From Ignavibacterium sp. (lineage in GTDB: Bacteria; Bacteroidota; Ignavibacteria; Ignavibacteriales; Ignavibacteriaceae), in contig JAVSMP010000001.1 in NCBI GenBank assembly GCA_032027145.1, positions 3,291,116-3,355,115 of the forward strand: a stretch of DNA of 64,000 nucleotides. Direction: 5' to 3'. The notes beneath the pieces are model-generated. The model ran no database searches, was not told where the DNA came from, and saw only the letters and a program-made list of their open reading frames with translations. Shown here piece by piece: positions 26,426-42,602 of the stretch. Both the position numbers and the translations under genes were made by a program. Within the stretch, counting starts at the first letter, position 1; each line of letters opens with the position of its first letter.

Positions 26426-26449
26426 AAATAGTTATTCAATTCGTAGTAT

Positions 26450-26509
26450 CATCCTTTAACTCAGCCCGGGGTAACAAAGCTGATGTAATACTGAGCAGTG
26501 TTGAAGTAT
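26450..26509. repeat. REP-like palindrome pair upstream of dinB
   Basis: At 26488-26509 arms ATACT and AGTAT enclose the core GAGCAGTGTTGA. At 26450-26474 lies a worn copy of a related unit in the other orientation, beginning ATCCTT and ending GGGGTAAC. The same core, CTGAGC then GTCGAAG, recurs at 54028-54104 with different but still complementary arms. This marks a dispersed palindromic repeat, here placed between the DUF72 gene and dinB. Confidence 0.6.
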
Positions 26510-26520
26510 GCTCACATAAT

Positions 26521-27402
26521 TCATTGAATCTCCTTCAGCCTCTGATAAGCCTTAACAATTGTCGGCGGCATATTAACTTTTCTCTTTTCTTCAAGTAAAT
26601 GAATCAACTCAAAAGCATTTGCTATCGCATCGCCTTGCGGATGATTATTCATTATCACATTTACTTCTTTCACTTTATGCAGTACAGATTTTATCTTTTG
26701 TTCAATTTCCACAAGTTCGCCAGGTGAATAGAGATAATTGTACCGGGAACTTTGCTCCTCATAAGTTTGCGCTTTTCCGAAGTTAGATAAAGATTTTTTC
26801 CAGGCTTCAACATTTCTTCCGTGAAATCTGATATAAGCTTTGTCGTTAGTAACTACAGGATTAAACCCAATTGCCTTTCCAATTTGCGGTTGATCAATAG
26901 TGCAAAAGGTCAAGTCATTTTCTTTAAAGAAATCCAGTGCACGATTATTATTCCAGCTTTGATGACGAACTTCAACAAAACAACTAACATCAGAAAAAAT
27001 ATTTTTAAGCTTTTGTATATACTGAATAGAATTTCCATCAAAAGAATATGAATAAGGAAACTGAATTAACAATCCTCCAAGTCTCTCAGATTTTTTTAAC
27101 CGCTCCAGATTATAACGAACATCTTTTATATTTTGCTCATCATACTTTCTCTTATGTGTAAAATCCTGATGAAGCTTAATATGAAAAACAAAGTCATCTG
27201 TATTTTCAACTTTTCTTATCCATCCATCAACTACTTTATGGCTTATATAACTATAGTAAGTGGAATTAACTTCAACACAATTAAAATAATGTGCATAAAA
27301 CTGCAGCCAGTCAAATCCGGCAGATTGATTTTTTGGATAAAAATTCGGCACCCAATCTTTATATGACCAGCCTGCAGTGCCAATGTTAAATTTCGGGTTC
27401 AT
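26521..27402 (-). CDS. DUF72 (YecE-like) family protein
   Basis: The 293-residue protein is a DUF72 member with a TIM-barrel-like plan. Typical motifs are present: IGTAGWSYKDWVPNFYP at the N-terminus, NCVEVNSTYYSY near 38-49, LLIQFPYSYSF near 105, CFVEVRHQSW near 135 and YIRFHGRNVEAW near 190. The function of the family is not firmly known; it has been tied to nucleic-acid or metal-dependent processes only by context. It lies 70 bases after lexA and 95 bases before dinB on the same strand, so a DNA-damage role is suggested by neighbourhood. Confidence 0.88.
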   Translation of the reverse strand: MNPKFNIGTAGWSYKDWVPNFYPKNQSAGFDWLQFYAHYFNCVEVNSTYYSYISHKVVDGWIRKVENTDDFVFHIKLHQDFTHKRKYDEQNIKDVRYNLERLKKSERLGGLLIQFPYSYSFDGNSIQYIQKLKNIFSDVSCFVEVRHQSWNNNRALDFFKENDLTFCTIDQPQIGKAIGFNPVVTNDKAYIRFHGRNVEAWKKSLSNFGKAQTYEEQSSRYNYLYSPGELVEIEQKIKSVLHKVKEVNVIMNNHPQGDAIANAFELIHLLEEKRKVNMPPTIVKAYQRLKEIQ

Positions 27403-27432
27403 TACTTTATTTTAATTTTAAATACATATAAT

Positions 27433-27448
27433 AAACACATTTGTTAAC
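27433..27448 (-). promoter_or_regulatory. Possible second LexA box before the DUF72 gene
   Basis: The 12-base near-palindrome AACACATTTGTT (27435-27446) shares the 8-base core ACATTTGT with the perfect palindrome in front of lexA. It lies about 30-45 bases upstream of the DUF72 start. Its outer arms match the lexA operator only partly, so it would be a weaker site. Confidence 0.4.
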
Positions 27449-27472
27449 CTTCTAAGCTTAGTAAAGAAGCAG

Positions 27473-28096
27473 TTATACTTCTTTTTTTTCCATACTTCTG
27501 TATATGCCTACAACTATTCCAACAACTTGAAATAATGTATATTTTTTATCAATAACAATTGGTTTGTATTCAGGATTCTCAGAAATCAGTTCTATCTCAT
27601 TTTTCTTCTTATAAAATCTTTTTACTACAGCAGCATCATCAAGTATTGCAACAACTATTTGTCCGTTCTTCGGTTCAAGATTTGGATTAACAATTACTAT
27701 ATCGCCGCTGAAAATATAAGCATCTTTTAAGCTGTCACCTTTTACACGAAGTAAAAATGAATCCTGAGGCATTTTAGCTATTGTAGGAAGTTTAACTGTA
27801 TCAATAGCATCTGGATAGATAGTCAGTGGATTACCTGCGGCAACTTCTCCAAGTATTGGTTTAGGAACAAAATACTTATCGTCAAGAGTTAACTCTATTC
27901 CACGGGAAAGTTTTGGGTTCTTCTTTATATATCCTTTTTTTTCGATTGCATGCAGATGCTGCTGAACAGTTGCTCTGTTTGAGTAGCCGAAATAATTTGC
28001 AATATCAGCAAGGGTTGGCGGAATCCCCTTGCCTTTTATCTGATCAATTAAATAATCCAGAATATTCTTTTGGATCTCTGTTAATTCTTTTTTCAT
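27473..28096 (-). CDS. lexA: LexA repressor
   Basis: The 207-residue SOS repressor has an N-terminal winged helix (about 1-68; TLADIANYFGYSNRATVQQH is the recognition part). The cleavage site Ala-Gly is in GEVAAGNP near 88-91, the catalytic Ser lies in VKGDSLKDAYI near 128, and the Lys in AAVVKRFYK near 166. All residues needed for RecA-stimulated self-cleavage are present. A perfect palindrome overlapping its own promoter marks autoregulation. It heads a lexA-DUF72-dinB set. Confidence 0.96.
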   Translation of the reverse strand: MKKELTEIQKNILDYLIDQIKGKGIPPTLADIANYFGYSNRATVQQHLHAIEKKGYIKKNPKLSRGIELTLDDKYFVPKPILGEVAAGNPLTIYPDAIDTVKLPTIAKMPQDSFLLRVKGDSLKDAYIFSGDIVIVNPNLEPKNGQIVVAILDDAAVVKRFYKKKNEIELISENPEYKPIVIDKKYTLFQVVGIVVGIYRSMEKKEV

Positions 28097-28171: not shown

Positions 28172-28209
28172 TAAAAAAAATCCTCTTAGTTGTAAAAACC
28201 AAGAGGATT
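28172..28209 (-). terminator. Rho-independent terminator of the polysaccharide operon
   Basis: Arms AATCCTCTT (28179-28187) and AAGAGGATT (28201-28209) make a 9-bp stem. On the minus strand a run of eight T follows directly. It lies 21 bases past the stop of the hybrid kinase gene and upstream of the lexA promoter, separating the two transcription units. Confidence 0.8.
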
Positions 28210-28230: not shown

Positions 28231-31200
28231 TCATCTAGAAAGGAATATCTTTTCAAGAGAGGCTATCATTTTTTCTCTAAAAATGGGTTTAGAAATAAAA
28301 TCATCAAATCCAGCAGCTATAAATTTTTCCTTATCACCAGGAAGTACATAAGCAGTAACAGCAATAACTGGAATTGAGCTGAATGCGGGCATCGTTTTAA
28401 TTATCTTAAGTGCATCAAGTCCATTATACTCACCCTGTAAATTTATATCCATAACTATAAAATCAAACTGATGATCGAACAAAAGCAATTGTGCTTCTTC
28501 AAAACTAACTGCAAATTTTACATCTCGCAATTCTTTTAACTGAACTTTAAACAAAAGCTGAGAATCTATCTGATCTTCAATGTATAAACAATTCAGTTTA
28601 GACAGGTCTAATGATTTTACAGGAACAACTTCAGGAGTCTCCTCTTTAACTTCCTGCTGGGGTATTAAACTTTCTTGTTCAGGTAATTGATCGCCTTTAT
28701 TAGCAGTCTCTGCTTGTACATCAAGAGTTTCATCCTGCTCAAAACTGGTTACTACTTCTTCATCAGCTGCATTTTCATCTAAAATATTTTCAGAAAGTTT
28801 ACTCAATATCTCCTGTGATACTGGCGGTACAGGTTTAAAAATATCATCATCTGCTGCAGGTATTTCCTGCCCAGTAGTTAAATCAACATCTTCTGACTTC
28901 TCAATTTCCTCTGAAACTTGTTTCTGATCAGCAACTGCATTTTTATAAATTATAACATCAGGTTGAGTCCGGGCAGTTTCAAATCTGCTTTTTGAAGACA
29001 ATGTCAAATTGAAAACAAATCCTGTTTCAGGTCTTAAAGTCTGAGCTGATGAACGATAAAATCTTCCGCCAAGATATTCAAGCAGTACTCTTGACAAATA
29101 TGTAGTTAGCTTTGGTAAACCGAAATCTTTAGGATCGCGGTTATTTTCATAAACCTGCTCAAGTACATTTGCAACATATTCTGAAGGATTTCCATATTGG
29201 TCGCTTAAGCCAATTAAAAATGTATCATTATCAAGCGGAAATGCAGAGAAATATACTTTTTTGTCCTTACTTAATCTTGAAACAACTTTAATTACTGTAA
29301 GAACGAAACTTTCAAACTTATGCAGATCACTTTTAAATTTTAAAGATGAAGAAATTTTTCCATACAAAAACTGTATGTCATTAATACCCGAAATATTCTG
29401 AATATTTTCATCAAGCTTTTCGATAATATCTGTAATGCTAATATCATCAACTTTTAATGGTGCCCTATTTTGAAGTATATCTGAATACTCAACAACGGAA
29501 TTCATTGTATCCATCATCTTTATACGATTTTGATTGATGATTTCTGCCGCTTCCTTTTGTTCTTCAGTTGGACTTTCAGTACTGCTTATCAGCTCCTGAG
29601 AAAAACCAATTATAACATTTATCGGAGTCAGAATTTCATGGAACATTCCTGAGAGGAAGTTCGAATCAAATATTACAGTTCTTTTATCTTCTTCAACAGG
29701 TTTTTCAACTGCAATTTCTCTTACAATTTCTTTAATGATTTCTTTTGGTTCAGATAGAACTGTCTTTGGTTTTAATATTAAAGTAAATGAATCGGTCTCA
29801 CCTTCAAAATCCATAATCGGGTAGGCTGATAGATAACATTCTATAACTCTTCCATCAGATGATTTGATTGTTGTTTCAAGCTCAATAGCATCTTTTATAT
29901 GATATTGAAAAATTGAAGTATTAATCAATGCTCTTTCGTCATCAATAACAAGACTTGCAAATGAAGAGCGTAATAATTCATCCGCATTATAACCGAATGT
30001 TTTAACAGAATTCTGGTTAACATAAGTTATAAACCCGGCTGCATCTGTGGTTAATATCATCAAATCCGATTGTGCAAAAATTGCACGAAGCATTTGATTC
30101 TGTTTATCTTTCTCTATGCTATCGGTAATATCATTTACAATATTAAAATGAGCTTCTCTATCATTAAAGATAAATGATGTTTTACTAATCTTAACTAAAA
30201 TGATAGTTCCGTCTTTTTTCCTATGTCTGAAAGGTTTACTGAAACTAGCTGTTGAAGTTTCATCACCAGAAGAATCGAGAAGAGTTTGAATATCTTCAGG
30301 CGAATACAGATCAGTTAAATCCATCTGAAGAAATTCATCTCGGGTGTAACCGTACAGATTTACAGCAGCTTCATTAACTTCAAGAAACTTTAAGTTTTCT
30401 TTATCGTATATTAAAACCGGTTCTGGATTCTTTTGAATTAAAACGTCAAACATTTCTCCTCTATTAGTTAAAATGAATTCTATTTCATCTTCATAAATCT
30501 TTTCATCAATAATCAATTCAAGAGTAATGAGTACTGCTTTTTCTGAGTTGAATTCTGAAACCTGCTTACAAAAATACAGTTTATATTTGTATTCAACATT
30601 CTTTTTATCATCAAAAAATAAAGTATCAGTTGTAAGATCAGTTAATTCACTTTCAATAAACGAAATAAATTTTTCAACTAAGTCCTCAGAAAATAAATCA
30701 CTTAATTTTTTATTTAATATTTCTTCGGAATTTTCATTTGTAATTTCAAGAAATTTCTGATTACATAACTTAAAATTTCCCTTAAAGTCTGCTATCGCTA
30801 ATGGATCTTTAAAACTTTCTAAGATTTCCCTAAAAAAACCCGTTAATTTGCCTGTCCCGCCGTATTCTGTCTTATTATCAACTATCAGACCAAGTATATA
30901 ATTTACTTGTCCATTATGATCAAGAATTGGTATCTGTAAAAGATCTTGCGAAACCTTAAAATTTACATTTTTTTTAATAAACCCTTCTAAAATTACAGGT
31001 TTTTTGTTCTGACATACAAACTGATTTACAAGTTGTATTGATAATTGCTTATGAAGCGGTAAAAACATCTCATGTTTTTTACCTGATGCAAAACTTTTTT
31101 CAACATCCAGATTATTAGCAAATGCATCATTTACACATATAAGTTTATCATCTGAAGTTTTAATCCATATCGGCTCTGAAAAATCATCAATTATTTTTTG

Positions 31201-31713
31201 AACATTTTTTAATGACAGAATAGTAAAAGGAAAATTAGAACTGACTGCATCAAACAATTCCTTAATTGCAGGATAAACTAATTTTAATTTTTCAATTGAA
31301 ACAGAAGAATTAATAATGCCGGTCAGATTATCACTGATTTCATTTTTCCTGGAAAAAAAGAGAATTGTATTTATGCCGTACTCTGATGATATTGTTTCGA
31401 GAACTAACTCATAATCTTCTGTCGTTCCCGTTTTTAATTTCAGTGATATATTTCGTTCTATCAGTTTAGTAGATGTATTTATAGACAATCCGATTAAGTC
31501 ACTTAATTCGATAACCGTATCAGGTTCAAAAACCTGATCAAGATTAACATTATGATCATCAATCAGAAAATTTGAAATTGCGTTTTGATTGGTAAAAACA
31601 ATTTCTTGTGATTCATCCAGAATGATAAGTGGATTACCAAGCTTATCAGCAGTTTTACTAAAAAACTCTAACCATTCTTTATTTAAGGTTAACACATTTA
31701 AGCCAATAATCAA
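28231..31713 (-). CDS. Multi-PAS hybrid histidine kinase/response regulator
   Basis: The 1160-residue cytosolic protein has about five PAS-like domains (roughly 15-110, 165-285, 290-400, 430-545 and 550-665; the fourth, with LFLEVNEAAVNLYGYTRDEF-like text, is the clearest). Next comes a HisKA-like segment with FHEILTPINVIIGFSQEL (His near 692). The ATPase region at about 770-915 lacks clear N and G boxes. After an acidic, Glu/Gln-rich linker (about 925-1030) a receiver follows, with Asp near 1089 in FIVMDINLQGEYNG and Lys in FISKPIFREK. The weak ATPase domain suggests a scaffold or phosphatase rather than a normal kinase. It is the last gene of the polysaccharide operon (4-base overlap with the gene before) and likely regulates that system. 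Confidence 0.82.
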   Translation of the reverse strand: MIIGLNVLTLNKEWLEFFSKTADKLGNPLIILDESQEIVFTNQNAISNFLIDDHNVNLDQVFEPDTVIELSDLIGLSINTSTKLIERNISLKLKTGTTEDYELVLETISSEYGINTILFFSRKNEISDNLTGIINSSVSIEKLKLVYPAIKELFDAVSSNFPFTILSLKNVQKIIDDFSEPIWIKTSDDKLICVNDAFANNLDVEKSFASGKKHEMFLPLHKQLSIQLVNQFVCQNKKPVILEGFIKKNVNFKVSQDLLQIPILDHNGQVNYILGLIVDNKTEYGGTGKLTGFFREILESFKDPLAIADFKGNFKLCNQKFLEITNENSEEILNKKLSDLFSEDLVEKFISFIESELTDLTTDTLFFDDKKNVEYKYKLYFCKQVSEFNSEKAVLITLELIIDEKIYEDEIEFILTNRGEMFDVLIQKNPEPVLIYDKENLKFLEVNEAAVNLYGYTRDEFLQMDLTDLYSPEDIQTLLDSSGDETSTASFSKPFRHRKKDGTIILVKISKTSFIFNDREAHFNIVNDITDSIEKDKQNQMLRAIFAQSDLMILTTDAAGFITYVNQNSVKTFGYNADELLRSSFASLVIDDERALINTSIFQYHIKDAIELETTIKSSDGRVIECYLSAYPIMDFEGETDSFTLILKPKTVLSEPKEIIKEIVREIAVEKPVEEDKRTVIFDSNFLSGMFHEILTPINVIIGFSQELISSTESPTEEQKEAAEIINQNRIKMMDTMNSVVEYSDILQNRAPLKVDDISITDIIEKLDENIQNISGINDIQFLYGKISSSLKFKSDLHKFESFVLTVIKVVSRLSKDKKVYFSAFPLDNDTFLIGLSDQYGNPSEYVANVLEQVYENNRDPKDFGLPKLTTYLSRVLLEYLGGRFYRSSAQTLRPETGFVFNLTLSSKSRFETARTQPDVIIYKNAVADQKQVSEEIEKSEDVDLTTGQEIPAADDDIFKPVPPVSQEILSKLSENILDENAADEEVVTSFEQDETLDVQAETANKGDQLPEQESLIPQQEVKEETPEVVPVKSLDLSKLNCLYIEDQIDSQLLFKVQLKELRDVKFAVSFEEAQLLLFDHQFDFIVMDINLQGEYNGLDALKIIKTMPAFSSIPVIAVTAYVLPGDKEKFIAAGFDDFISKPIFREKMIASLEKIFLSR

Positions 31714-32996
31714 TAGGTTGATACTACTACTTCATTTGAATAATCTGAATATCTTACTGAATCAAATCCTCTTACCCGATAAGCATAATTCTGTTGCAAT
31801 TGAATATTAAAATCAAGATACAAATTATTTCCTGCATTCACTCTTTTTAATAATGCAAAATTACCATTTTCTGTTTTTCTTTCTATATCAAAAAACAAGA
31901 TTCTATTATCATTATTTATCCACCTAAGTTCCACAACCGGTACAGTACTATCATAATTTGCAGATAAATTCGTTGGAGGATTAAGTATTGTAGAATTTAA
32001 TACAATGCTTGCCACCTGACTAACTGCTGAATCCGAATTGCTAAAGTTTTTTATTCTGTAAAAATAAGTTAATCCTAATGTCAGTCCACTCTTGGGATCT
32101 ACATATTGAGTGGTATTTGGCGGCAAATATGCTACTGAACTAAATAAAATGTTATCAGTGCTTTTTTCAACAGAAAAATAATTTTCATTATCACTATTAT
32201 CAGTCCAGTTAATCCGAATCGAATAATCTTCAAGAATCTGAAGAGTAAGATTAGTTGCAGGTAATAAATCGCCTGAACTGATAACTCCAGAAGTATTTAC
32301 TTCAGAGCTAAACTCAGATACACCAGATAATTTTACTCCTCTTATTTTGTAATAATAAGTTTTACTTGAATCCAGCCCGTTATCATTTGTATTAAAAGAT
32401 GCTCCGGATAATTTCTGATGCAAAAGATATTCACCATCAAGTCCTGTTTTTCTCCACAGTTCGTACTGCTCTATATATTTTGAAGAATCCATCCAGCTAA
32501 TGTTACAAGTGCCATTTTTAAAATTAATAAGTCTTACATTGTACGGTTTGAACGGAAGGCGTTCATCTTTAATAATCGTTATATCCGAAATAATATTGCT
32601 TTTGTATGACTTCCCTTCATTGTCATAAAATATAATATATAAGTTGTAAATTTTATTTACTTGGCTTGAATCAAAAAAGTAGTTTACTGGCGGAAGTGTG
32701 CCATCAGAATTGGGAGGAATATTTTTTATAAAATTTCCATTTATATACAATTCCAGAAATTTTACCGAATAAGGCTGATTAACATTATAATAAATATTAA
32801 CTAATCCTTCGGAAATTTCATCTCCGCTTTGGGGATAAGTAATCTGAATTTTCTTTCCATCATTCAGATAATTTTCAGGTTCAGAACTCCACTCAGCGCA
32901 AGAAACATAAAAAAACGCCAGCAAGAAAAATATCTTAATATAAAGGTAAGAGAAGTAATTATTAAAAAAATTATTTCGAACAATTTTAATCATCAC
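31710..32996 (-). CDS. Fibronectin type III-repeat lipoprotein
   Basis: This 428-residue lipoprotein has an N-terminal hydrophobic leader ending FFYVSC, with lipidated Cys near 33. The Ig-like first domain (about 48-145) holds ITYPQSGDEISEG and is followed by three Fn3-like domains (about 150-240, 245-335, 340-428). These show repeated phrases such as KTYYYKIRGVKLSGVSEFS and LTYFYRIKNFSNSDS. It has no enzyme motif. It overlaps both neighbours by 4 bases, so it is an integral operon member. A surface or periplasmic carbohydrate- or protein-binding role in the export system is plausible but inferred. Confidence 0.75.
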   Translation of the reverse strand: MMIKIVRNNFFNNYFSYLYIKIFFLLAFFYVSCAEWSSEPENYLNDGKKIQITYPQSGDEISEGLVNIYYNVNQPYSVKFLELYINGNFIKNIPPNSDGTLPPVNYFFDSSQVNKIYNLYIIFYDNEGKSYKSNIISDITIIKDERLPFKPYNVRLINFKNGTCNISWMDSSKYIEQYELWRKTGLDGEYLLHQKLSGASFNTNDNGLDSSKTYYYKIRGVKLSGVSEFSSEVNTSGVISSGDLLPATNLTLQILEDYSIRINWTDNSDNENYFSVEKSTDNILFSSVAYLPPNTTQYVDPKSGLTLGLTYFYRIKNFSNSDSAVSQVASIVLNSTILNPPTNLSANYDSTVPVVELRWINNDNRILFFDIERKTENGNFALLKRVNAGNNLYLDFNIQLQQNYAYRVRGFDSVRYSDYSNEVVVSTY

Positions 32997-34573
32997 CTGC
33001 CTGAATTGAAAATAATTTTTTCTTCTGATCTTGGCAGGATTTCATTTATAAATATCTTTTTCATACCGTTTCCTGAATCGACAGAATAATTTAAAAAAGA
33101 TTTTCTCTTATCAGATACAACATTAAAATCATTAATATTTACATATAAAATAATGTCTTTAAGTTCAACCGGATTATCGTTTCTTACAGTAATTTCAATA
33201 CTCTGATTATTCTGAACACTTACTTTTATTTCTCTTTCAAGATTCAATTTATTTCTTAGTACAGTAAGGTTGGTAAATACAGTACGATCATTTACTTTGT
33301 TTTTGAGATCTTTCAGAAAATTATTTTCGACATCAGTATTGCAATCAATCTTGGGTATATAATAAACTACTTCCACAGGTTCATTAAAATAAGTTCTAGA
33401 AGCTGAGCCAACAGTTAAAAACAAACTCCCATCATTTGTTAATTGTGTCCCAGAAACCTTTTCATTAAAAAGTATAAAATTTTTTATTCCATATTCTTTT
33501 AATTGAGTAATCTGTGAGGGATCAAAATCAGAGGAAATAAATACCGACTGCACAGTTATATTATTCAAAGATTCAAAGCTTCTTAAGTAATCAATAATAT
33601 TACTATTATTTTTATTATACTGGATTGTTGATCTTAAATCTAAAATAATCTGTTCCTCAGGAACCTTATTCAGCAAACTCTTATCAAGCTGTGATATTTC
33701 GCTAATTACAATATGCGGATTAAAACTATTTAGTATTAAAACATCAGCAAAATCTTTGTTAAAGGCATTATTATACTGCATAAGGAGAAGCTTTATTTGC
33801 TCTTTTTTATTAATAGTTAAATATGGGAATGCAGAAACTTCAATATCTAACCATTTTATGGAATCCAGTAAGAACTGTTCAAAGTTGTGATACTCTTCAG
33901 AGCCGCCAATCAGATCTGTTAATCCAAATCCGATAAAAACAAATTTGCCAGAATTATTTTTTCCATAAACTATTGAACTAATTTCAGAATTATTATCCGC
34001 ATTCAAAATATAACCAGCAGTGGAATAATTATATCTTCCTAAATCAACACACTGATTTTCGCTTTTTACAGCAACTAAAAAATCCGAATAATTTTTGAAC
34101 GAATTTATTGGACTTTGAAATATTGTCTGAGTGAAACCAAGCCTTTTATTTAGCACCTGATTTTTTAACATTATACCAAACAAATCTTTTAACTCGTTTG
34201 TATTACTGTTCATCAAAGCTGAGTTAAAAGCATTTGCTGATAGAATAGATTTACCTGCCAGTAAAAAATTTTTAATTACTAAATACTTTTCAATTGATTG
34301 AACATTATACCGCGGTAATACCAAAATATCGAAATCATCCTCTAAACCAGTAACCAGATCTTCATCATAAATAACTTTGTAATTAATTTTATACTGCATT
34401 AAAAAGATTTCCCATGCAGTAAACTCATCTAAATAAGAATTGGTATTTGTGAAAAATGTTTTTTGAGAATAATCTGAATATAAAACAGCAATCCGGTTAT
34501 GCGCATTTAACTCAATTGAAGTAAATAAAATAAGAGTGATGATTAAAGCAGATATTTTAGTTTGAGTATTCAA
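32993..34573 (-). CDS. Secreted paralogue of the deacetylase-like protein
   Basis: The 526-residue protein has a signal peptide (about 7-25). It is a full-length relative of the next gene upstream: IAVLYSDYSQKT matches VAILYSKYTENT, DDFDILVLPRYN matches KYKLIVLPGTKS, FVFIGFGLTDLIGGSEEY matches FMWMGFELNSIIGVQEDY, and both end with a beta-sandwich tail. The first 230 residues form a glutamine-amidotransferase-like Rossmann domain. The middle (about 255-440) would be the deacetylase-like barrel but shows no D-x-D or HxxxH metal motif. Activity is unlikely; a structural or binding role is inferred. I know no named family for it. Confidence 0.65.
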   Translation of the reverse strand: MNTQTKISALIITLILFTSIELNAHNRIAVLYSDYSQKTFFTNTNSYLDEFTAWEIFLMQYKINYKVIYDEDLVTGLEDDFDILVLPRYNVQSIEKYLVIKNFLLAGKSILSANAFNSALMNSNTNELKDLFGIMLKNQVLNKRLGFTQTIFQSPINSFKNYSDFLVAVKSENQCVDLGRYNYSTAGYILNADNNSEISSIVYGKNNSGKFVFIGFGLTDLIGGSEEYHNFEQFLLDSIKWLDIEVSAFPYLTINKKEQIKLLLMQYNNAFNKDFADVLILNSFNPHIVISEISQLDKSLLNKVPEEQIILDLRSTIQYNKNNSNIIDYLRSFESLNNITVQSVFISSDFDPSQITQLKEYGIKNFILFNEKVSGTQLTNDGSLFLTVGSASRTYFNEPVEVVYYIPKIDCNTDVENNFLKDLKNKVNDRTVFTNLTVLRNKLNLEREIKVSVQNNQSIEITVRNDNPVELKDIILYVNINDFNVVSDKRKSFLNYSVDSGNGMKKIFINEILPRSEEKIIFNSGR

Positions 34574-34587
34574 TTTGTCTGTGGTAA

Positions 34588-36483
34588 TTATTTTATTTGA
34601 TCATAATCTATATAATACTGTCTTGATTCACCTGGTTTAAGATCGTCTATAAAAAGATAAACCATTTGAGAACCATTACTGTGTTTTACACTAGCCGGTT
34701 TCGTTCCGATTAACTCAGATCCAATTGTAACATTATTTGCAAAATCATTTAAATCGATATCTATAACAAGATTATTAATATTTTCCACACCTGGATTTGA
34801 AACTTTAACCGCTACTCTTGATTTGCCTCTTCTATCGGATCTGATTTCAATATAGTCCCTTTTTTCATACCATTTCTGAATTTCAGAAGCTGTGGTAATC
34901 CAGAACTTTTTTCGTTTTAAGTCTTTAACTATATCTCTTACAACTCCGATATTTTCACTCCTGCACTGATAATCTGTATGGACTTTGAATATGTACATTC
35001 CACCCTCAAATAGAGTACGGTCTAAATCCTCCTGATAAGTATAAAACTGAAAATCAGGAATCGTCAAACCAAAATCTCTAATTACTTCATAATCATCACG
35101 TGCTGTTTTTGTCATTGTAACAATGCGTTTATCACCGCGTATAATAGTTTTTGGAACAGAGCGGTCTGTAAGAGAATCAGTTAATACATATTTATAATCA
35201 GCATACACTACTGCATTTAGAGTGTTATTATCAAACAATCCGTACAATGGAAGCAAACCAGTTACACTTTTAGATACAATGTTTTCAAGAACACCTTTAG
35301 CCTTTGAAATTTTCTGAAGCTGTAAATCATAATTATTAAGCTTATTATCTTTATCATTAATTGAATTTAAAAAACCGATATCTACTAATGCACCTACTTC
35401 ACCGTAATTAGAAATATTTTTCAATATACTTTTATTAATTTCTGCAGTTAGCGGGTCAACAAAAAAAGTAGCAGTTAGACCTTCATCTCTTAAAACAGGC
35501 AGCAGATTATTTATATTTTCTACTTTTTCTGAAAGAACCGGAATAATAACAGCAGCAGCTTCATAACCTGTAGGCCAATCTCTTACATAAGCAATTGGTG
35601 CATATAAAAGCCATTTGATTGAGTTATTAAACAATCTTTCGAAGTATATGTAGTCTTCCTGAACACCAATTATAGAATTAAGTTCAAAACCCATCCACAT
35701 AAATCTGCCTTTACCATAATTTCCAAAAGCAATACCAGCAGATTTTTTTATTTCTTCGCGTACCAATCCATCATCGAGCCGGTAATTATACCAAAAGCTA
35801 ACTTGCGTAGTCCTTGGATCTAATACTTCCACAGCCATAGGTCTATCCCATGTAGCAACTTTTAGTGGAAATCCTGTAGGAATATTAGCAGTTATTGGTA
35901 AACTGCCACAGACAGTATGAATTTTTGAAAACTCGTTTGGTTTTAATTCGTATGAGAATTGGATTCCAAAAACCTGATTGAGAAACTCCCAACCCCGCCA
36001 TTTACCATCATCAGAATAGGTACCAATTCCACCAGTAGCAAAAACACTGCCTCCTTGTTCCAGATATTTTTTTAATTGTAAAGCTTCTTCGCTGCTTATC
36101 GATTTTGTACCTGGAAGAACAATTAATTTATATTTGAAATGCTTACCGGTTTCAACAGTATTATCCGAAATTACATCGTATTTAATATTCAGGTTATCAA
36201 GAAATTTTTTCCAGGTTGATAAATTATCATTTAACCAGGTGCTTCCAATTGGTAATGTGTTTTCTGTGTATTTGGAATAAAGAATTGCAACTTCAGGTGA
36301 TTTTCCAAACAGGAAGTCTTCTATAACAGATTGATTTGGAATCACATCATCAATATCAAATCGTCCATATATGCCGCGTAATATAAAATAATATATAAGA
36401 AAGGCTGAAATAAGTATTACTATTCCAGATAAAATAATAAAGAATTGATTAACCCTTACCCCGAAGATTTTATTTACCGCCAC
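34588..36483 (-). CDS. Membrane-anchored polysaccharide deacetylase-like protein, metal motifs lost
   Basis: This 631-residue protein has one N-terminal membrane span (about 13-35) and an extracytoplasmic Rossmann domain (about 60-290; SVFATGGIGTYSDDGKW). A NodB-like barrel follows (about 305-540; LLPVLRDEGLTATFFVDP and YIFKVHTDYQC), then a C-terminal beta-sandwich. In active deacetylases the first motif is TFDDG or THDxE and the second HSxxH. Here the corresponding stretches read IIPVLSEK and VGALVDIGFL, so the metal-binding residues are missing. By position it is the PgaB-like member of the operon. It overlaps the small membrane protein gene by 10 bases. Possibly DUF2194-related, not verified. 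Confidence 0.65.
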   Translation of the reverse strand: MAVNKIFGVRVNQFFIILSGIVILISAFLIYYFILRGIYGRFDIDDVIPNQSVIEDFLFGKSPEVAILYSKYTENTLPIGSTWLNDNLSTWKKFLDNLNIKYDVISDNTVETGKHFKYKLIVLPGTKSISSEEALQLKKYLEQGGSVFATGGIGTYSDDGKWRGWEFLNQVFGIQFSYELKPNEFSKIHTVCGSLPITANIPTGFPLKVATWDRPMAVEVLDPRTTQVSFWYNYRLDDGLVREEIKKSAGIAFGNYGKGRFMWMGFELNSIIGVQEDYIYFERLFNNSIKWLLYAPIAYVRDWPTGYEAAAVIIPVLSEKVENINNLLPVLRDEGLTATFFVDPLTAEINKSILKNISNYGEVGALVDIGFLNSINDKDNKLNNYDLQLQKISKAKGVLENIVSKSVTGLLPLYGLFDNNTLNAVVYADYKYVLTDSLTDRSVPKTIIRGDKRIVTMTKTARDDYEVIRDFGLTIPDFQFYTYQEDLDRTLFEGGMYIFKVHTDYQCRSENIGVVRDIVKDLKRKKFWITTASEIQKWYEKRDYIEIRSDRRGKSRVAVKVSNPGVENINNLVIDIDLNDFANNVTIGSELIGTKPASVKHSNGSQMVYLFIDDLKPGESRQYYIDYDQIK

Positions 36484-36926
36484 TTCAGTTCCCCTGAACT
36501 TCTATCTTCCTGAGTCGGGATGTACCCTTCAGAAGTATATTTCAGGAATTTATTTTCATCACTACGTCCAGAGTTTACACGCATTCTAACTTTTTGTTTT
36601 TCAACTTTAGATTCCTCAGCTTTATATTCTTTTGGCTCAGGAGTAAATTTGGATTGAGCGGGCTGTTGTTGTTTTGTGTATTCCTCTCTTGTTATACCAG
36701 GTTCTACAGGCAGTGTTCTCCTTTGCTCGGGTTGAATTGAAACTTTACCAATTGCTGCTTCACTTGGAATAACTAACTCAGCTTTTACAGTAGAAGGTTT
36801 TGTTTGAAAGGCATATTGTTGTTTACCTTCTCTAATCTTATAGAGTATATAGGCTCCAACTGCCAGAATAAATGTGCATATAGTGGCAACAAGAATAATA
36901 GTGGACAATATCGGTATAAGTTCCAT
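36474..36926 (-). CDS. Small single-span membrane protein of the polysaccharide operon
   Basis: The 150-residue protein has one N-terminal membrane helix (about 5-30, PILSTIILVATICTFILAVG) followed by a charged Lys/Glu/Pro/Gln-rich tail that is probably disordered and cytosolic. No known domain is visible. It starts one base after the glycosyltransferase stop and overlaps the deacetylase-like gene by 10 bases. By size and place it could serve like PgaD, the small partner that stabilises the PgaC synthase, but there is no sequence likeness I can point to. Confidence 0.6.
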   Translation of the reverse strand: MELIPILSTIILVATICTFILAVGAYILYKIREGKQQYAFQTKPSTVKAELVIPSEAAIGKVSIQPEQRRTLPVEPGITREEYTKQQQPAQSKFTPEPKEYKAEESKVEKQKVRMRVNSGRSDENKFLKYTSEGYIPTQEDRSSGELKWR

Positions 36927-38357
36927 TTAATTTCCTACAGTATTAACGACAATCTTACCTGATTTACCAGATGTACTTCTTTCCAGTTTACCCCATGTCA
37001 TTCTAATCCCTAAAAATTCTTCAATTGTTGACATGGTTTTACAAATATCGATGATTAAAATAAAAAACATTCTGTAAATAATCGCATACCATACAAGTCT
37101 GAATTCTTCTTTCTCTACAGCTACACAATATAGTGCAGTTACAAGATCCAAGATCGCCAATCCCGCCCACCAGAAAAAAATCAGGTGAGAAAACCCAAAC
37201 AGTAATGCTGCAAAAATAAAAAAAGCATTAGCAGCAATATTCATTGTTGGCCATATCAGCGCTTCATAAGACATCACCCAAAGAATAAAAGCTTGACCAA
37301 AATGTGTAGCCGGACTAAGCATAATTTTTTTGTGTTTTCTGATCGATTGCAATATTCCTCTTGTCCATCTGTATCTTTGTTTTAATAACTGCTGCAAAGT
37401 AACCGGTGCTTCAGTGTATGATATCGACTTCGGCTCATAATAAATTTTCCAACCTTTTGACAGAAGTTTTAATGTTAAATCAGCATCTTCTGCATAAGTA
37501 TCACTCGAATAAAATCCTGCCTGTTCAATGGCAGCTTTTCTAAATACTCCAATTGGTCCCGGGATTATATTAACATATCTGAAGTAACTTTGAGCACTTC
37601 TTGCCATATTTAATCCCTCAATATATTCAAGAGCCTGCAGATCTGTAAAGAATCTTTTTCTGTTTTGAACTTTAACATTTCCTGCGACAGCACCTATCTT
37701 AGGATCTTTAAAGTGTCTTACTGCAACTTTTATTGATTCAGGAGATAACTGAGAATCACCATCCATACAAAGGACATAATCTGCTTTTGAATAAAATATT
37801 CCTGCATTCAATGCTCTTGCCTTACCAAGATTAGGCTGATTGATTAAAGAAACTAAAACCTTTCCATAAAGAGCATCCTGAAACCCTACCATTGATTCTG
37901 CAATTTGTTTTGTATCATCTGTAGAACCGTCATTGACGATAATAATTTCGTAATTGAAATAATCCAGTTTCAATAATGAAGAAATTGAATCACGAATAAT
38001 CTTTCCTTCGTTATACACCGGAACTATAATTGAAACAAAAGGCGCAAATCCATTTACAGACGAAAATGTATATTCGTTTATATACAAATACGCTGAGATA
38101 AGAATTGCAAAATATCTTACCAGAAGGATAAAGAGAAAAATTACCAGAGCAACAATTATCGAGTATTCAAATAGTGAACTATATGATAGTATAGTGTATG
38201 GTAAAGAATAAATGATAATCAGAATAAGCAGTAAAGACATAATTCCGCTTATAAGAATCCTTCGTAAATACTTCTGCTCTAGATTTTCTCCTTTTTTTTC
38301 TTCCTCACGGTTTGAAATAGTTATTACAGCACGCTCTACGATTTGGTTAAACTTCAT
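36927..38357 (-). CDS. Processive family-2 glycosyltransferase (PgaC/cellulose synthase-like)
   Basis: The 476-residue membrane enzyme has two spans near 33-95, a GT-A domain (about 105-340), and three or more spans near 355-450. Motifs of processive synthases are all present in order: SIIVPVYNEGKIIRDSI, VNDGSTDDT, MDGDSQLSP (DxD), YAEDADLTLKL (the TED-type base) and QRYRWTRG (QxxRW). These are known from PgaC, hyaluronan and cellulose synthases, which build and thread a beta-linked polymer across the inner membrane. No PilZ domain is present. A GGAG Shine-Dalgarno precedes the ATG, and a sigma-54-like promoter lies about 30 bases upstream. The sugar made is unknown. Confidence 0.9.
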   Translation of the reverse strand: MKFNQIVERAVITISNREEEKKGENLEQKYLRRILISGIMSLLLILIIIYSLPYTILSYSSLFEYSIIVALVIFLFILLVRYFAILISAYLYINEYTFSSVNGFAPFVSIIVPVYNEGKIIRDSISSLLKLDYFNYEIIIVNDGSTDDTKQIAESMVGFQDALYGKVLVSLINQPNLGKARALNAGIFYSKADYVLCMDGDSQLSPESIKVAVRHFKDPKIGAVAGNVKVQNRKRFFTDLQALEYIEGLNMARSAQSYFRYVNIIPGPIGVFRKAAIEQAGFYSSDTYAEDADLTLKLLSKGWKIYYEPKSISYTEAPVTLQQLLKQRYRWTRGILQSIRKHKKIMLSPATHFGQAFILWVMSYEALIWPTMNIAANAFFIFAALLFGFSHLIFFWWAGLAILDLVTALYCVAVEKEEFRLVWYAIIYRMFFILIIDICKTMSTIEEFLGIRMTWGKLERSTSGKSGKIVVNTVGN

Positions 38358-38387
38358 TTCTCCGAAAGATGGTTTTGCAAAAATTTT

Positions 38388-38402
38388 TCAATAACAATGC
38401 CA
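38388..38402 (-). promoter_or_regulatory. Sigma-54-like promoter before the glycosyltransferase gene
   Basis: On the minus strand TGGCATTGTTATTGA shows the -24 GG and a -12 TTGA with the correct 10-base spacing between the GG and GA pairs. The consensus is TGGCAC-N5-TTGC, so the last base differs. It sits in the only long gap of the operon (177 bases) and would place a start site about 20 bases before the ATG. Confidence 0.4.
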
Positions 38403-38534
38403 TTAAACCGATTTTTTACAGTTTTTTTTCACACAGAATTTCTACCAAAATATTACCAATTTTAGATTTTGATTTGAATTGTATCATTATCAAACAGCGA
38501 CAAAAATTGCAGCACTATTAATTTTTTAATGAGA

Positions 38535-41381
38535 TTACAGACTCCAAATTAAACTTCCAGAAATGGAATTAGAGCGATAACCTGTTCCAGATCTGAATGA
38601 ACTACCCGTCAAAAATCTTGCTTGAAACATCAGTGATTTAATAATCAAATAATCAAACTCTGCATAAAATTCGGATAATAGATAATTATTTTCAGGAATT
38701 ATTCCGCCCTTTCCGCCAATTGTAAATCGCACTTCTTCATCTTTATACAAACTCCAATCAGCCCAAAGAGAATGGGATTCGAAGTTTTTCGGACTCCAGT
38801 ATAATGAAACAGTGTTATCAAAATCAAAATAGAAATATTCATAACCGGCACTAAGATCACTTTCAAACTCTTTCCCTAATCTTAACTGTAGTTGGTTACC
38901 TGAATTTTTATCAGAAAGATCAAAGTATTGAAACTTACCAGAGATAATTAATTTATTTCTGAATTTATATGAACCTATTACACCAAGATGATTTACACTT
39001 ATCCGATTGTTGACCAGAAAAGGAGAGTAGAGAATAAATACTGCATCTGAATAATTTGCAAATGCTGTAAAATCAAATATATCTTTTTTACTGGCTGATA
39101 ATTTGATTTCATATAAATCAGAGTTCTTATCATCAATAAATCTATTCTGTCCAATTGAAGCTGAACCTGAAATAAATCTATTGACTTTGAAGTACGCAAT
39201 ACCCTTAAACTGATTGAATCTTACATTAAAATCTTTAGAAGAAAGCGTACCTGCAGAACCCGAAAGACCAAGGCTTAAGAAGTTTGTAACTCCCAAATCG
39301 AAACCAAGACCAATATTTGAATATTTGAAGTTTGTATTATCATTGAAATATGCTGCTCTAGGAATTAATTGTATATAAGTAGGAAATTGAGCAAAAGAAA
39401 ATTCTCCTGTACCATCAATCCAACCTAACCTGGTTCTTATAATATGAGAGTTTGGTGATTCTTTCAGCAGATCTTCATAAATAATTTTTGCTGTTTCTGT
39501 CTGGTGATTCTGCAAATAAGCATCACCCAGCAGCATTTTGGTTTCTACATCTCCAGGATTATTGGTATGTAGATCTATAAATTCCTTTAATGCTAAGCTT
39601 GAATCGCCTGACCATAAATACAACTTTGCAAGCTTTTTTCTGATTTCATAATCAGGCTTATTTTTTAAAAGCTCTTTATAAATCGATATTGCTTTGTCCT
39701 TCTGATTATTAAGGATATAAATATCTGCAAGTTCCATTTTAACATTTGAATTTGAATCAACAGAAGATAAGTAATCATTAAAAAGTTTAATTGCAGAATT
39801 ATAATTTTTATCAGCAGCCAAAAATCTTGCTTCATCAAGTTTTGCAAATAATTTTTTCTCTTCAACATTCATTTGAATGATATAATAATCCTGCAGTAAT
39901 TTTTTATACTCTCTTGAAGTGCTGTCAATTTTTGAAATTTCGTTAACAATCTCACTAAAACTATTAAAATCAGAATTTGTTAAATACACATTTGCCAATC
40001 CAATCATAGCCTCATAATTAAGCGGATCAACCATAAGTACTTTTTCATAAAGAGATTTTATTTTAATCGGGTCAGCATTTAACCAGTAATTTAACTTAGC
40101 TGCTAATAACAAGTACTCAACTTTGTTCTTTCCCTGTTTAATAAGAGATTCAACTTCGTCCAGTGCTTCACATAGATTATTCTGCCACATTAAAACCTGA
40201 GCTACATTAAACCTAACTTCATTATCTGAAGGATCAAGATTCAAATATCTTTTATATAATTTAATTGAATTATCATATTCTTGTTTATAAGAATAATATT
40301 TTGCAAGCTCTAATAATGCTGTTTTATTATCAGGATTCTTACTTAAAATATCCTCGTAGTATTTAACCTTATCCGAATAGTAAGAATTGCTCAGCATTAA
40401 AATTCTTTCAGACAGTTCAACATTCCTTTGCAGATTATTTGTATTTAAGGCTAAAACTTTAAACTGATCTTTAGCTTCTTCAAACCGATTTGCTTTAAGC
40501 AATTCTTCAGTCAGTTTATATCTTGTATCATAATCTTCAGGATTGCTTTTCAACAATCTATAATACTTATCTATTATATACTCTTTAGATTCCGGTGCAA
40601 TACCATAATTATAACGTACAGTGGTATCGTTAATTGAATAGACATAAGCTTTGCCCTTAGCCATATCGAGCCCGTCAATAGCTTCTTTAAAGAAGGGCCT
40701 GATTTCAAGCGATTTGGTAAATGCATCAACAGCAGATTTATTTTTTCCTAACCACAATAAAAAATATCCATATCTAGAAAGTAACCTATGATCATCTTGA
40801 TATTTTTCTGTGTAAATTTTGAGGATTTTTTCACCCTTAACTAATTGATTATTTTTTGCCAGAATCTCACTATACCTAATAATTTCATCTGCTGAAGCTG
40901 ATTCTTTTTCCAGATACAGATCATACCAAACCTCAGCTTCACTCCAATTACCTAAATGTTTAAAACACTTTCCTATCTCAAGATAATTCTTTGCAGAGTT
41001 TGGGTCTATAGCTATTTCTCTTTTATGTCCCTCAATTTTATTATAAAGGATTTTATACCAATTGGAGATTGCCCTGTTAAGATTGGAATTAACTTCTTTA
41101 TCATGAGGTTTTAGTTTTTTGGCAGTTCTAAAATCATAAACTGCATATTCAAAATTTCCTCGCTTTTCGTAACACACACCTCTGAGATTAAAACCTTCAG
41201 CAGAAGTGGGTACAGCTGAAACATACTTATTTAACTGATCAATAGCCTCACCGTAACGGCCATAATCCATTAATTGCAAAGCTTCAGATTTGAATTTTTC
41301 AGGATCCTGCGATTGAGGAAAGATAAAAGGACTAATTAAGAAAATTATTAAGAAAAACTGTGGAGAGTAAAATGATTTCAT
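38535..41381 (-). CDS. TPR plus outer-membrane beta-barrel exporter (PgaA/BcsC/YaiO-like)
   Basis: The 948-residue protein has a signal peptide (about 5-22). A long array of about 17 TPR-like units runs from 27 to 650, with phrases such as YGRYGEAIDQLNKYVSAVP and GNWSEAEVWYDLYLEKES. A C-terminal barrel of about 300 residues follows, made of alternating strands (LGFDLGVTNFLSLGLSGSAG) and ending ISGSLIWSL. This plan is that of PgaA and BcsC, in which TPRs guide the polymer and the barrel lets it out. It follows the KaiC-like gene by 15 bases and precedes the synthase gene, fitting an export role. The barrel also resembles YaiO. Confidence 0.8.
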   Translation of the reverse strand: MKSFYSPQFFLIIFLISPFIFPQSQDPEKFKSEALQLMDYGRYGEAIDQLNKYVSAVPTSAEGFNLRGVCYEKRGNFEYAVYDFRTAKKLKPHDKEVNSNLNRAISNWYKILYNKIEGHKREIAIDPNSAKNYLEIGKCFKHLGNWSEAEVWYDLYLEKESASADEIIRYSEILAKNNQLVKGEKILKIYTEKYQDDHRLLSRYGYFLLWLGKNKSAVDAFTKSLEIRPFFKEAIDGLDMAKGKAYVYSINDTTVRYNYGIAPESKEYIIDKYYRLLKSNPEDYDTRYKLTEELLKANRFEEAKDQFKVLALNTNNLQRNVELSERILMLSNSYYSDKVKYYEDILSKNPDNKTALLELAKYYSYKQEYDNSIKLYKRYLNLDPSDNEVRFNVAQVLMWQNNLCEALDEVESLIKQGKNKVEYLLLAAKLNYWLNADPIKIKSLYEKVLMVDPLNYEAMIGLANVYLTNSDFNSFSEIVNEISKIDSTSREYKKLLQDYYIIQMNVEEKKLFAKLDEARFLAADKNYNSAIKLFNDYLSSVDSNSNVKMELADIYILNNQKDKAISIYKELLKNKPDYEIRKKLAKLYLWSGDSSLALKEFIDLHTNNPGDVETKMLLGDAYLQNHQTETAKIIYEDLLKESPNSHIIRTRLGWIDGTGEFSFAQFPTYIQLIPRAAYFNDNTNFKYSNIGLGFDLGVTNFLSLGLSGSAGTLSSKDFNVRFNQFKGIAYFKVNRFISGSASIGQNRFIDDKNSDLYEIKLSASKKDIFDFTAFANYSDAVFILYSPFLVNNRISVNHLGVIGSYKFRNKLIISGKFQYFDLSDKNSGNQLQLRLGKEFESDLSAGYEYFYFDFDNTVSLYWSPKNFESHSLWADWSLYKDEEVRFTIGGKGGIIPENNYLLSEFYAEFDYLIIKSLMFQARFLTGSSFRSGTGYRSNSISGSLIWSL

Positions 41382-41396
41382 AACAGACTATCACTT

Positions 41397-42602
41397 TTAT
41401 CCCTGGTTTAATTGAGTTCTGGCTGCCTCAAGATCAAATTCGTTAAAAATGTCCTCAACACTATTCATAAACTGGTTAATCTTCAAAACAAGATAAGATA
41501 CATTTACGCTTGTTTCAACTTTTAGTGAACTGTGTACTTTATTAATAAACTCTTCAACAATACCGTTTTCGGATTTTGTTAACAGAATAAATATTTTTTC
41601 ACCGATAACACATATCTTATTTTTTTTATCTGCGGTTATTTTAACAGCATTAAACAATTGTTCAAAATTGATTTTTACTTCTGCATTACTATACTGGTTT
41701 AATCTTAATGAAACAATCGTAAAAGGCTGACCGGTAGTTTTGTAAAGTGCAATCTGATTATTGACAATTAATTTGAAATCATTAACGGAATAAATATTAG
41801 GAATCAACAAATCCGAAATAGCATTTAATGAAGTTTTTGAAGGCTGAAGCTCAGTAATATCTAACAAGTTGTTTTCTTTTGTAGATTTTTTGGCAGATTT
41901 AAAATCTGTTGTTATTCCTTTATAAGGTTCGATAAAATAATTTGCTTTAAAGTAGCCTTCTGTATGTCCTATATTTGGAATGATTTCAATTATACCCGGT
42001 TGTTCTTCACCAGATTCTTTTGCTTTGTGAAGATGGATAATGCCGGTTGAATATGAATTAAGAATATCAAATATCATCTTGGAAGTTTGAGCAGCAGGTT
42101 CGCGTAAAATCAACAGACTTGTAATGCCTGCTTCTTCGATTGATTCAATTAAAGAGCCAAATGCTTCTTGCAAATTGTTAAGATTCTCAAACTCTACATA
42201 CGGAGTTATCTCATCAAAAATAATCTTTTCGGGTTTATACTGATTTATAACTGATAACAAATCACTTAAATAATCATTCAGTAATTCATCTCTGGTTTTA
42301 AATTCTTCGGAATCTGATGGGTGAGCAACTCTTACAACTATTATGAGGTTTTGATTTATATAGTTTTCAAGATCAACATCAATTGAAGCAGCATGAATGA
42401 TCAAATCTTTTGGACGTGAACTTGTAAAAAACAGACAAACTTCATTACTTTTTGCTGCTTCGATAGCGTATTGTAAACTTAATAGAGTCTTACCAGTTTT
42501 ACGCTCCCCAACAAGCAAATAAGTCCCCCCATGATAAAATCCCCCCCATGCGTTATCGACAATAGGAATCCCCGAACGAAATAGTTGAACGCTTTTTTTC
42601 AT
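41397..42602 (-). CDS. KaiC/RadA-like ATPase with degenerate GGDEF-like tail
   Basis: The 401-residue protein has a RecA-superfamily ATPase domain (about 1-230): GGTYLLVGERKTGKTLLSLQ (Walker A GERKTGKT) near 25-44, VCLFFTSSRPKDLI, and PEKIIFDEITPYVEF as Walker B. The C-terminal about 145 residues have the strand-helix order of a GGDEF domain (FTIVSLRLNQY, then ICVIGEKIFILLTKSENG). The GGDEF loop reads IGEKIF, so it cannot make c-di-GMP. It is the first gene of the operon; 176 bases lie between it and the GH9 gene. A regulatory or nucleotide-sensing role for export is inferred. Confidence 0.7.
   Translation of the reverse strand: MKKSVQLFRSGIPIVDNAWGGFYHGGTYLLVGERKTGKTLLSLQYAIEAAKSNEVCLFFTSSRPKDLIIHAASIDVDLENYINQNLIIVVRVAHPSDSEEFKTRDELLNDYLSDLLSVINQYKPEKIIFDEITPYVEFENLNNLQEAFGSLIESIEEAGITSLLILREPAAQTSKMIFDILNSYSTGIIHLHKAKESGEEQPGIIEIIPNIGHTEGYFKANYFIEPYKGITTDFKSAKKSTKENNLLDITELQPSKTSLNAISDLLIPNIYSVNDFKLIVNNQIALYKTTGQPFTIVSLRLNQYSNAEVKINFEQLFNAVKITADKKNKICVIGEKIFILLTKSENGIVEEFINKVHSSLKVETSVNVSYLVLKINQFMNSVEDIFNEFDLEAARTQLNQG

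Follow-up and report, generated by a model that had tools for sequence, protein, structure and literature searches.

Genetic organization of the locus

We analyzed a stretch of 64,000 nucleotides from Ignavibacterium sp. (GCA_032027145.1, contig JAVSMP010000001.1, positions 3,291,116 to 3,355,115; referred to as the window, with position 1 as its first letter), in which eight open reading frames (ORFs) on the minus strand form a single run at 28231-42602. The genes from that for a glycoside hydrolase of family 9 (GH9), beginning at 44470, to that for a kinase-like protein, ending at 28231, likely constitute, with these as its probable limits, a synthase-dependent system for the synthesis and export of an exopolysaccharide. 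The labels P1 to P8 run against the direction of transcription, and P9 (GH9) and P10 lie upstream of P8. The features are:

42779-44470, minus strand: P9, GH9 endoglucanase-like protein with a CelD_N Ig-like domain (Pfam GH9 E 1.7e-70; start codon uncertain)
41397-42602, minus strand: P8, KaiC-like NTPase carrying a further alpha/beta domain at its C-terminus (Pfam KaiC E 6.4e-29)
41892-42602, minus strand: P8 residues 1-237, KaiC/RecA-like domain; Walker A GxxKxG[KR]T, Walker B FDE
41406-41801, minus strand: P8 residues 268-399, alpha/beta domain with putative GGDEF-like topology (DSSP order)
38535-41381, minus strand: P7, TPR protein, putative outer-membrane exporter (TPR_19 E 1e-43)
38538-39419, minus strand: P7, putative C-terminal barrel region
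36927-38357, minus strand: P6, membrane GT2 synthase akin to PgaC, HAS and NodC
36474-36926, minus strand: P5, 150-residue protein with one putative membrane helix
34588-36483, minus strand: P4, membrane-anchored, probably periplasmic, probable pseudo-deacetylase
35599-36303, minus strand: P4 residues 61-295, GATase1/GH42 domain-B-like domain
34855-35583, minus strand: P4 residues 301-543, CE4-fold barrel without the metal triad
32993-34573, minus strand: P3, diverged paralogue of P4
31710-32996, minus strand: P2, Fn3 protein (fn3 E 4.8e-7), putative lipoprotein by eye (...FYVSCAEW)
28231-31713, minus strand: P1, hybrid histidine-kinase-like protein with several PAS domains; intact HisKA and receiver beside a degenerate ATPase domain
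28179-28209, minus strand: terminator-like hairpin after P1 (13 pairs, then TTTTTT)

Two junctions of the run are 4-base overlaps (31710-31713 and 32993-32996), others are a 14-base gap, a 10-base overlap, an abutment at 36926/36927 and a 15-base gap, and the sole long gap (177 bases, 38358-38534) separates P7 from P6. Terminator-like sites as a class were not clearly enriched (10 found vs. 6.5 ± 2.9 in shuffles). The first-pass annotation had described this run by its short gaps and overlaps, its one 177-base gap and its terminator, with which the ORF coordinates and the hairpin agree, and its domain content was borne out by a domain search that matched TPR, GT2, CE4-like and GH42M-like, Fn3, KaiC and PAS/HisKA/receiver domains. 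The eight genes thus stand; the extent given for the operon was too narrow, as GH9 belongs inside it (see below).

Conservation of the gene order

Relatives were collected by scanning one genome per species, which gave 117, and the best 80 of these were kept as loci; they are labelled mostly as Ignavibacteria, Ignavibacteriales, Melioribacter and unclassified Bacteroidetes metagenome-assembled genomes, and include Stygiobacter electus. In the adjacency counts only loci with the position of the neighbour on the contig enter the denominator, ORFs below 100 residues without a family match were skipped, and genes were labelled by their best phmmer match (E 1e-3) to the window proteins. The order was conserved across the 80 loci, which supports the first-pass interpretation on this point, and because of this conservation the run is more than chance. 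P5 adjoins P4 in 78 of the 79 testable loci and the GT2 gene P6 adjoins P5 in 78/78. P7 lies upstream of P6 in 64/70 (directly in 46, with one extra gene between them in 18), P8 adjoins P7 in 57/57, and P1 is found at most three genes downstream of P4 in 69/72.

GH9 lies directly upstream of P8 in 50/53 loci. In three genomes (G031, G040 and G042) the operon is truly broken in two: other genes precede the GT2 gene and P8 is on another contig. In all three, GH9-P8-P7 remain together, apart from GT2-P5-P4; since these three genes stay joined when the operon is split, GH9 is linked to both the KaiC-like protein and the exporter. Because of this linkage and its position upstream of P8, GH9 belongs to the polysaccharide system, which therefore extends beyond eight genes. 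A further genome (G017, L202) also carries GH9-P8-P7, and its separation from the GT2 gene is a contig break only (one contig stops inside P7, the other begins near the GT2 gene); it was excluded from the split count, as were G010, G015, G028 and G044, where P4 and P8 are on different contigs.

Within a set of 59 genomes of the order (own genome included), P4 was found in 55, P5 in 54 and P8 clearly in 56, a 57th genome (G023) having only a distant KaiC (E 1.4e-9). Both P4 and P5 are missing from G006, G019, G023 and G029, and G010, a genome 76% complete, lacks P5 as well; a clear P8 is absent jointly with them from G006, which is a single contig, G023 and G029. In a sample of 296 genomes of the phylum, P4 occurred in 39, namely in 26 of the same order and in 13 labelled outside the class, including three weak, partial matches (G284, G302, G325) that were excluded from the system count. 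The 19 itemized genomes of other families of the same class had no P4 match; 237 further genomes without a match were not itemized.

Eight loci outside the class were compared by tblastn, because the ORF filter overlooked genes in two of them (L083 and L086). GT2-P5-P4 adjoin in 8/8 (the contig of L081 includes only the GT2 end), P4 is followed by a P3-like gene in 6/8 and P8-P7 lie upstream in 5/8, L086 ending after P7 and L081 earlier. GH9, P1 and P2 gave no match in the fetched stretches of these eight loci. On this gene content the core comprises P8-P7-P6-P5-P4 and often P3 as well; the Ignavibacteriales seem to have added GH9, the Fn3 protein and the kinase-like protein to it.

The synthase, the small membrane protein and the putative exporter

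In a comparison with ten Pga and Bcs proteins of E. coli, P6 is closest to PgaC (30% identity over 346 residues, E 8e-46) and then to BcsA (22% identity, E 1e-13). Its best NCBIfam match is the PgaC model TIGR03937, at 204 bits and thus below the curated cut-off of 422.3; the BcsA model TIGR03030 gave 57 bits (cut-off 699.1). All 13 aligned sequences, that of the window among them, carry the motifs DGD (D199, D201) and QRYRW (Q327-W331) unchanged, and their mean column identity is 68%; the DxD and QxxRW motifs for which P6 had been called a processive GT2 are thus present, and the processivity itself is predicted. P5 has a conserved N-terminal helix and in most aligned rows a C-terminal motif resembling xkyTsEGY..LKWR; its BLAST similarity to PgaD (E 0.053) is unconvincing.

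P7 starts with a stretch that by eye resembles a signal peptide, its profile matches the TPRs of E. coli BcsC (E 6.7e-8), and it scored 63.3 bits against the PgaA model TIGR03939 (cut-off 366.65). Of the TPR-barrel exporter proposed initially, the TPR part is therefore confirmed; the C-terminal region looks beta-rich and is likely a barrel, judged from the sequence. In two loci (L122 and L123) P7 is missing between P8 and the GT2 gene. Where the window has its 177-base gap, 18/70 loci have one gene, and in several of these it is an extra gene of ~400-450 residues with a GDS motif (L068:8254-9489, L078:9956-11191, L060:8139-9425); by this motif the extra gene reads as SGNH-like, and the L068 copy, the one scanned, matched no Pfam family. 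A similar GDS-motif gene lies upstream of the GT2 gene in L164 (6429-7754), where P7 is absent.

The deacetylase-like proteins P4 and P3

The AlphaFold model of P4 was built from 58 sequences (predicted local distance difference test, pLDDT, 87.4; predicted template modelling score, pTM, 0.85). From the N-terminus it shows a helix, a domain resembling GATase1 and GH42 domain B, a barrel of the CE4 fold and a beta sandwich. Its best structural matches are to CE4-fold proteins, the barrel aligning with 3rxz (Z 28.3, root-mean-square deviation (rmsd) 2.8, 241 residues aligned), and to GH42 domain B, residues 61-295 aligning with 5xb7 (Z 20.1, rmsd 2.9, 208 aligned). PelA (9cgy) was matched over both the first and the deacetylase-fold part (Z 18.5, 364 aligned, rmsd 14.0) and NDST1 was among the Foldseek matches; a viral structure library gave no informative match, and no profile similarity was found to E. 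coli PgaB.

The CE4, CE18 and PelA enzymes are described as holding their metal by an Asp and an HxxxH pair (PMC7229062, PMC12022489). In the alignment of 58 rows (window plus 57 of 78 copies) HxxxH occurs in the motif-2 region of 0/58 copies and elsewhere in the protein in 2/58. The loose motif-1 pattern was found in one row, and DD or DxD in that region in 5/58, the window having neither. Since HxxxH is missing in 58/58 and conservation of the Asp pair of motif 1 was not seen either, P4 is rejected as an active deacetylase on its motifs and is probably a pseudoenzyme with the CE4 fold, which we infer probably serves as a scaffold that guides the polymer. P4 might instead be catalytic through a different set of conserved residues (D436, S437, R441, R462, D464, E485, D486 and H502 within the order): invariant polar residues are dense in the barrel of the 58 copies, and D436 and S437 stay nearly invariant even when distant copies are added. 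The other six then drop off both the invariant and the 90% lists, however, and no known catalytic arrangement was recognized among the conserved residues, for which reasons we regard an enzymatic P4 as unlikely.

The paralogue that had been noted for the deacetylase-like protein is P3, the second match to P4 in its own genome (E 1.4e-13); such a second P4-like gene was detected in 14/79 loci.

The KaiC-like protein P8

P8 scored 101.4 bits against the Pfam KaiC family (cut-off 26.6), and the N-terminal domain of its AlphaFold model (pLDDT 80.7, pTM 0.58) aligns with KaiC (Z 26.6, rmsd 2.4, 216 aligned); the fold search with the whole protein was filled by KaiC chains and reports on this domain. 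Residues G32, K35, G37, T39, D130 and E131 are kept in 56/56 aligned copies (the window and 55 of 56 usable copies), and residue 38, the Walker A lysine, is K in 13 (the window among them) and R in 43. Some genomes have a KaiC-like gene in tandem beside P8, in some cases a shorter one (L055, L115, G025, G032, and G021 with a third copy).

In the model, the secondary structure of the C-terminal domain follows the DSSP order H-E-H-E-E-H-E-H, a pattern that fits the GGDEF fold with one helix fewer that has been described in BcsE and PelD (PMC7439463), with weak support from sequence. Pfam GGDEF_2 matched this domain in 3/22 members (best E 7.4e-4). In profile comparisons, the 56 copies of the order gave E 0.22 against a degenerate GGDEF set and 0.98 against one canonical GGDEF, four distant copies gave 0.98 and 0.008, and the pooled copies 0.14 and 0.29; the value of 0.008 is unconvincing, because a PAS control reached 0.018 against the same distant copies. 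The positive controls gave 4.7e-8 (order vs. distant P8 copies) and 6.8e-11 (degenerate vs. canonical GGDEF). By eye, an RxxD is found at the aligned place of the I-site in three of the four distant copies (L080, L084 and L085), and the window copy has no arginine there; G132 and G089, two of the three genomes concerned, have no GGDEF match. Where the I-site would lie, residues 326-329, most copies have a well-kept K-K-D-K stretch, which is K-K-N-K in the window.

The similarity of P8 to the BcsE family PF10995 (12.9 bits vs. a gathering score of 25; E 0.043 and 0.034) does not make it a member: Synechococcus elongatus and Deinobacterium controls also matched below the cut-off, and there was no profile similarity to E. 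coli BcsE; we keep the relation as an analogy. BcsE is described as a KaiC/RecA-like N-terminal domain followed by a REC*-GGDEF* tandem (PMC7439463); the model of P8 has a single C-terminal alpha/beta domain, of possible GGDEF kinship.

Reading of cyclic di-GMP (c-di-GMP) by P8 appears unlikely in this genome, because no EAL and no PilZ match was found in it and its sole GGDEF match lacks the GGDEF motif; the latter (G000:C1:3547010-3547471, L185) is a 626-residue frame that reads as GAF-like. Exactly one GGDEF match per genome was found in 21/21 genomes of the order (own genome and 20 further members), and nine of ten distant genomes had no GGDEF match and nine no EAL match, G222 being the exception in both. 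A role of P8 as c-di-GMP receptor was rejected on the scarcity of GGDEF and EAL in the distant genomes and on the missing I-site arginine of the window copy, from searches in which HD-GYP and other nucleotide signals were not included.

The GH9 and the kinase-like protein

The GH9 motifs DAGD and NE..I..N are each present in 45/47 copies. By eye the N-terminus of P9 resembles a lipobox (...LLITASCG); the strict pattern occurs in 10/47 copies, so that lipoprotein status is not general. The first-pass annotation had placed GH9 next door as a possible trimming enzyme; its linkage to the system is borne out by the counts given above, and a role in trimming is plausible. In genome G056, which we take to be Melioribacter roseus, the operon GH9 has a mass of 58.0 kDa, in agreement with that of Mros2241, and from its position a gene number near 2262 would be expected; we infer that the two are the same protein. 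Mros0757 and Mros2241 are described as likely candidates for the cell-bound bands that degrade carboxymethyl cellulose (PMC3534657).

P1 had been called a multi-PAS hybrid kinase. Its PAS domains, phospho-acceptor histidine and receiver were recovered, HisKA and Response_reg being found in 29/29 aligned copies (window plus 28 of 61 usable copies), in which H692 and D1089 do not vary. A recognizable ATPase domain was not: Pfam detected none in the window copy, and HATPase_c in 4/29.

Comparison with known systems and alternative explanations

The operon combines a GT2 and a TPR gene, as synthase-dependent exopolysaccharide systems generally do, with the barrel and the processivity predicted. 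The locus would function like a Pga- or Bcs-type system and, by the features tested, is a member of neither, because the matches to the curated PgaC, PgaA, BcsA and BcsE models all remain below their cut-offs; this agrees with the original proposal of a distinct synthase-dependent system, and the comparison with Pga, Bcs and Pel gave no clear orthology to those clusters. It could be a strongly diverged Pga system that makes poly-beta-1,6-N-acetylglucosamine, with P6, P7, P4 and P5 as PgaC, PgaA, PgaB and PgaD, respectively: the GT2 is closest to PgaC, the TPR exporter and the CE4-fold protein that Pga would need are both there, and a small membrane protein stands beside the synthase. Yet P6 and P7 score below the cut-offs of the PgaC and PgaA models, P4 has neither profile similarity to PgaB nor deacetylase motifs, the one-helix P5 does not convincingly resemble PgaD, GH9 is conserved in place of the PgaB glycosidase domain, a KaiC-like ATPase is present and this genome has neither EAL nor PilZ, which together make a Pga system very unlikely. 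A Bcs-type cellulose system of the E. coli kind (with BcsE, BcsF and BcsZ), its parts replaced by GH9 for BcsZ, P8 for BcsE and P4 for BcsB and its product a beta-1,4-glucan, is quite unlikely too, although it shares an endoglucanase-type gene in the operon, here conserved beside the KaiC-like and exporter genes, BcsC-like TPRs, a small one-helix protein and a regulator in which a KaiC/RecA fold is followed by a further alpha/beta domain, as in BcsE (PMC7439463). P6 is nearer to PgaC than to BcsA and scores far below the BcsA model; GH9 is not GH8, the family of BcsZ; the genome lacks PilZ; P8 has no significant profile similarity to BcsE and, unlike it, keeps most of Walker A and B; and no BcsB profile similarity was found in P1, P4, P6, P7 or P8, with P2, P3 and P5 compared as single sequences only. 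Nor does the locus resemble Pel beyond the alignment of P4 with PelA, since the rmsd of 14 indicates a different domain arrangement, no hydrolase domain was detected in P4, the catalytic Asp/His set described for PelA (PMC12022489) is absent from it and the synthase is a GT2. From the KaiC family, P8 differs by its single KaiC domain joined to the C-terminal domain and by the arginine that replaces the Walker A lysine in most copies. No Alg model was among the NCBIfam matches listed for the window proteins, and no Alg sequences were compared.

A last alternative is that the locus encodes a surface apparatus that binds and degrades plant beta-glucan, with GH9 as the main enzyme and without export. 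M. roseus degrades cellulose, for which a cell-surface mechanism has been proposed (PMC3534657), and the mass of its operon GH9 matches Mros2241; however, the GT2 synthase is strongly conserved and GH9 was not found in the distant core loci, and we consider this explanation highly improbable. Several observations also weigh against the favoured reading as a synthesis and export system. A gene other than P7 lies upstream of the GT2 gene in 6/70 loci, P3 was undetected in 65/79, the 7.7 kb upstream of GT2-P5-P4 in L083 matched neither P7 nor P8, and the absence of GH9 from distant loci means that it is not universal to the core. In G019, a genome without P4, P8 is retained close to P1, and 14 kb fetched around it (L203) had no GT2, TPR or P4 match, so that P8 may also act without the synthase. 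At the level of single proteins, the C-terminal profile of P7 matched the BcsC C-terminus weakly (E 0.0034) and gave one meaningless and no useful match among PDB sequences, profile comparison did not tie the C-terminal domain of P8 to GGDEF, and the PF10995 similarity is unspecific, in that S. elongatus, an organism with KaiC, matches as well.

We found no description of such a system in the open-access literature searched, and the main text of a survey of synthase-dependent operons (PMC7112194) contains none of the terms 'Ignavibacteri', 'Chlorobi' and 'Bacteroidetes'.

Neighbouring genes

The gene upstream of GH9 in the window is:

44473-45117, minus strand: P10, fatty-acid-hydroxylase-like protein, loosely associated (Pfam E 5.4e-19)

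P10 lies directly upstream of GH9 in 19/35 loci and one gene apart in two more, and is on these counts a loose neighbour of the operon, as is LexA, which follows P1 in 27/62 loci. Downstream in the window (25235-28096) lie LexA-like, DUF72-like and DinB-like genes, so named from reading of their sequences, which together point to an SOS cassette. In L055 (1251-1769), L114 and L133 a short, solitary receiver-domain-like gene stands next to P10. In L122 and L123, genes of ~800 and ~720 residues lie upstream of GH9, the latter adenylate-cyclase-like by reading in L122. In G019 (L203, 5307-11056) a fatty-acid-hydroxylase gene, P8 and a kinase-like gene are close together, either as a leftover or as a separate regulatory set; a P5-like stretch in this genome (24% identity, E 6.8e-7 in a small database with the low-complexity filter off) was missed by the genome search and may be spurious.

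Proposed working and significance

In the synthesis and export system that we favour, P6 with P5 would polymerize a beta-linked glycan from a nucleotide sugar and extrude it through the inner membrane. GH9 leads us to a tentative guess, held at somewhat less than even confidence, that the polymer is a beta-1,4-glucan or a related glycan. P4, and P3 where present, would be anchored in the inner membrane facing the periplasm, bind the nascent chain without deacetylating it and pass it to the TPR scaffold of P7, for export through the C-terminal barrel of that protein. GH9 may trim or clear stray chain, as the GH8 enzyme BcsZ does in cellulose systems. The presumably cytoplasmic P8 would probably assemble or gate the synthase by ATP-dependent oligomerization, a BcsE-like role without c-di-GMP, and P1 and P2 would add sensing and surface functions in the Ignavibacteriales.

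A bolder version, which we rate as rather unlikely, is that the locus represents a separate class of machine, in which the synthase is switched by a KaiC-type ATPase and not by c-di-GMP and a former deacetylase has become the chain-guiding subunit, BcsE being a relict of the same design of KaiC plus degenerate cyclase. If true, ATP-driven KaiC-like control would be an old theme in polymer secretion.

The Ignavibacteriales are common in anaerobic and wastewater communities, and an order-wide polymer machine would give a handle on their matrix. The system would also lend itself to asking how control of synthase-dependent export works in a setting in which the usual enzymes of c-di-GMP were not found, and a GH9 that has been counted as cellulose-degrading in M. 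roseus may instead serve polymer synthesis.

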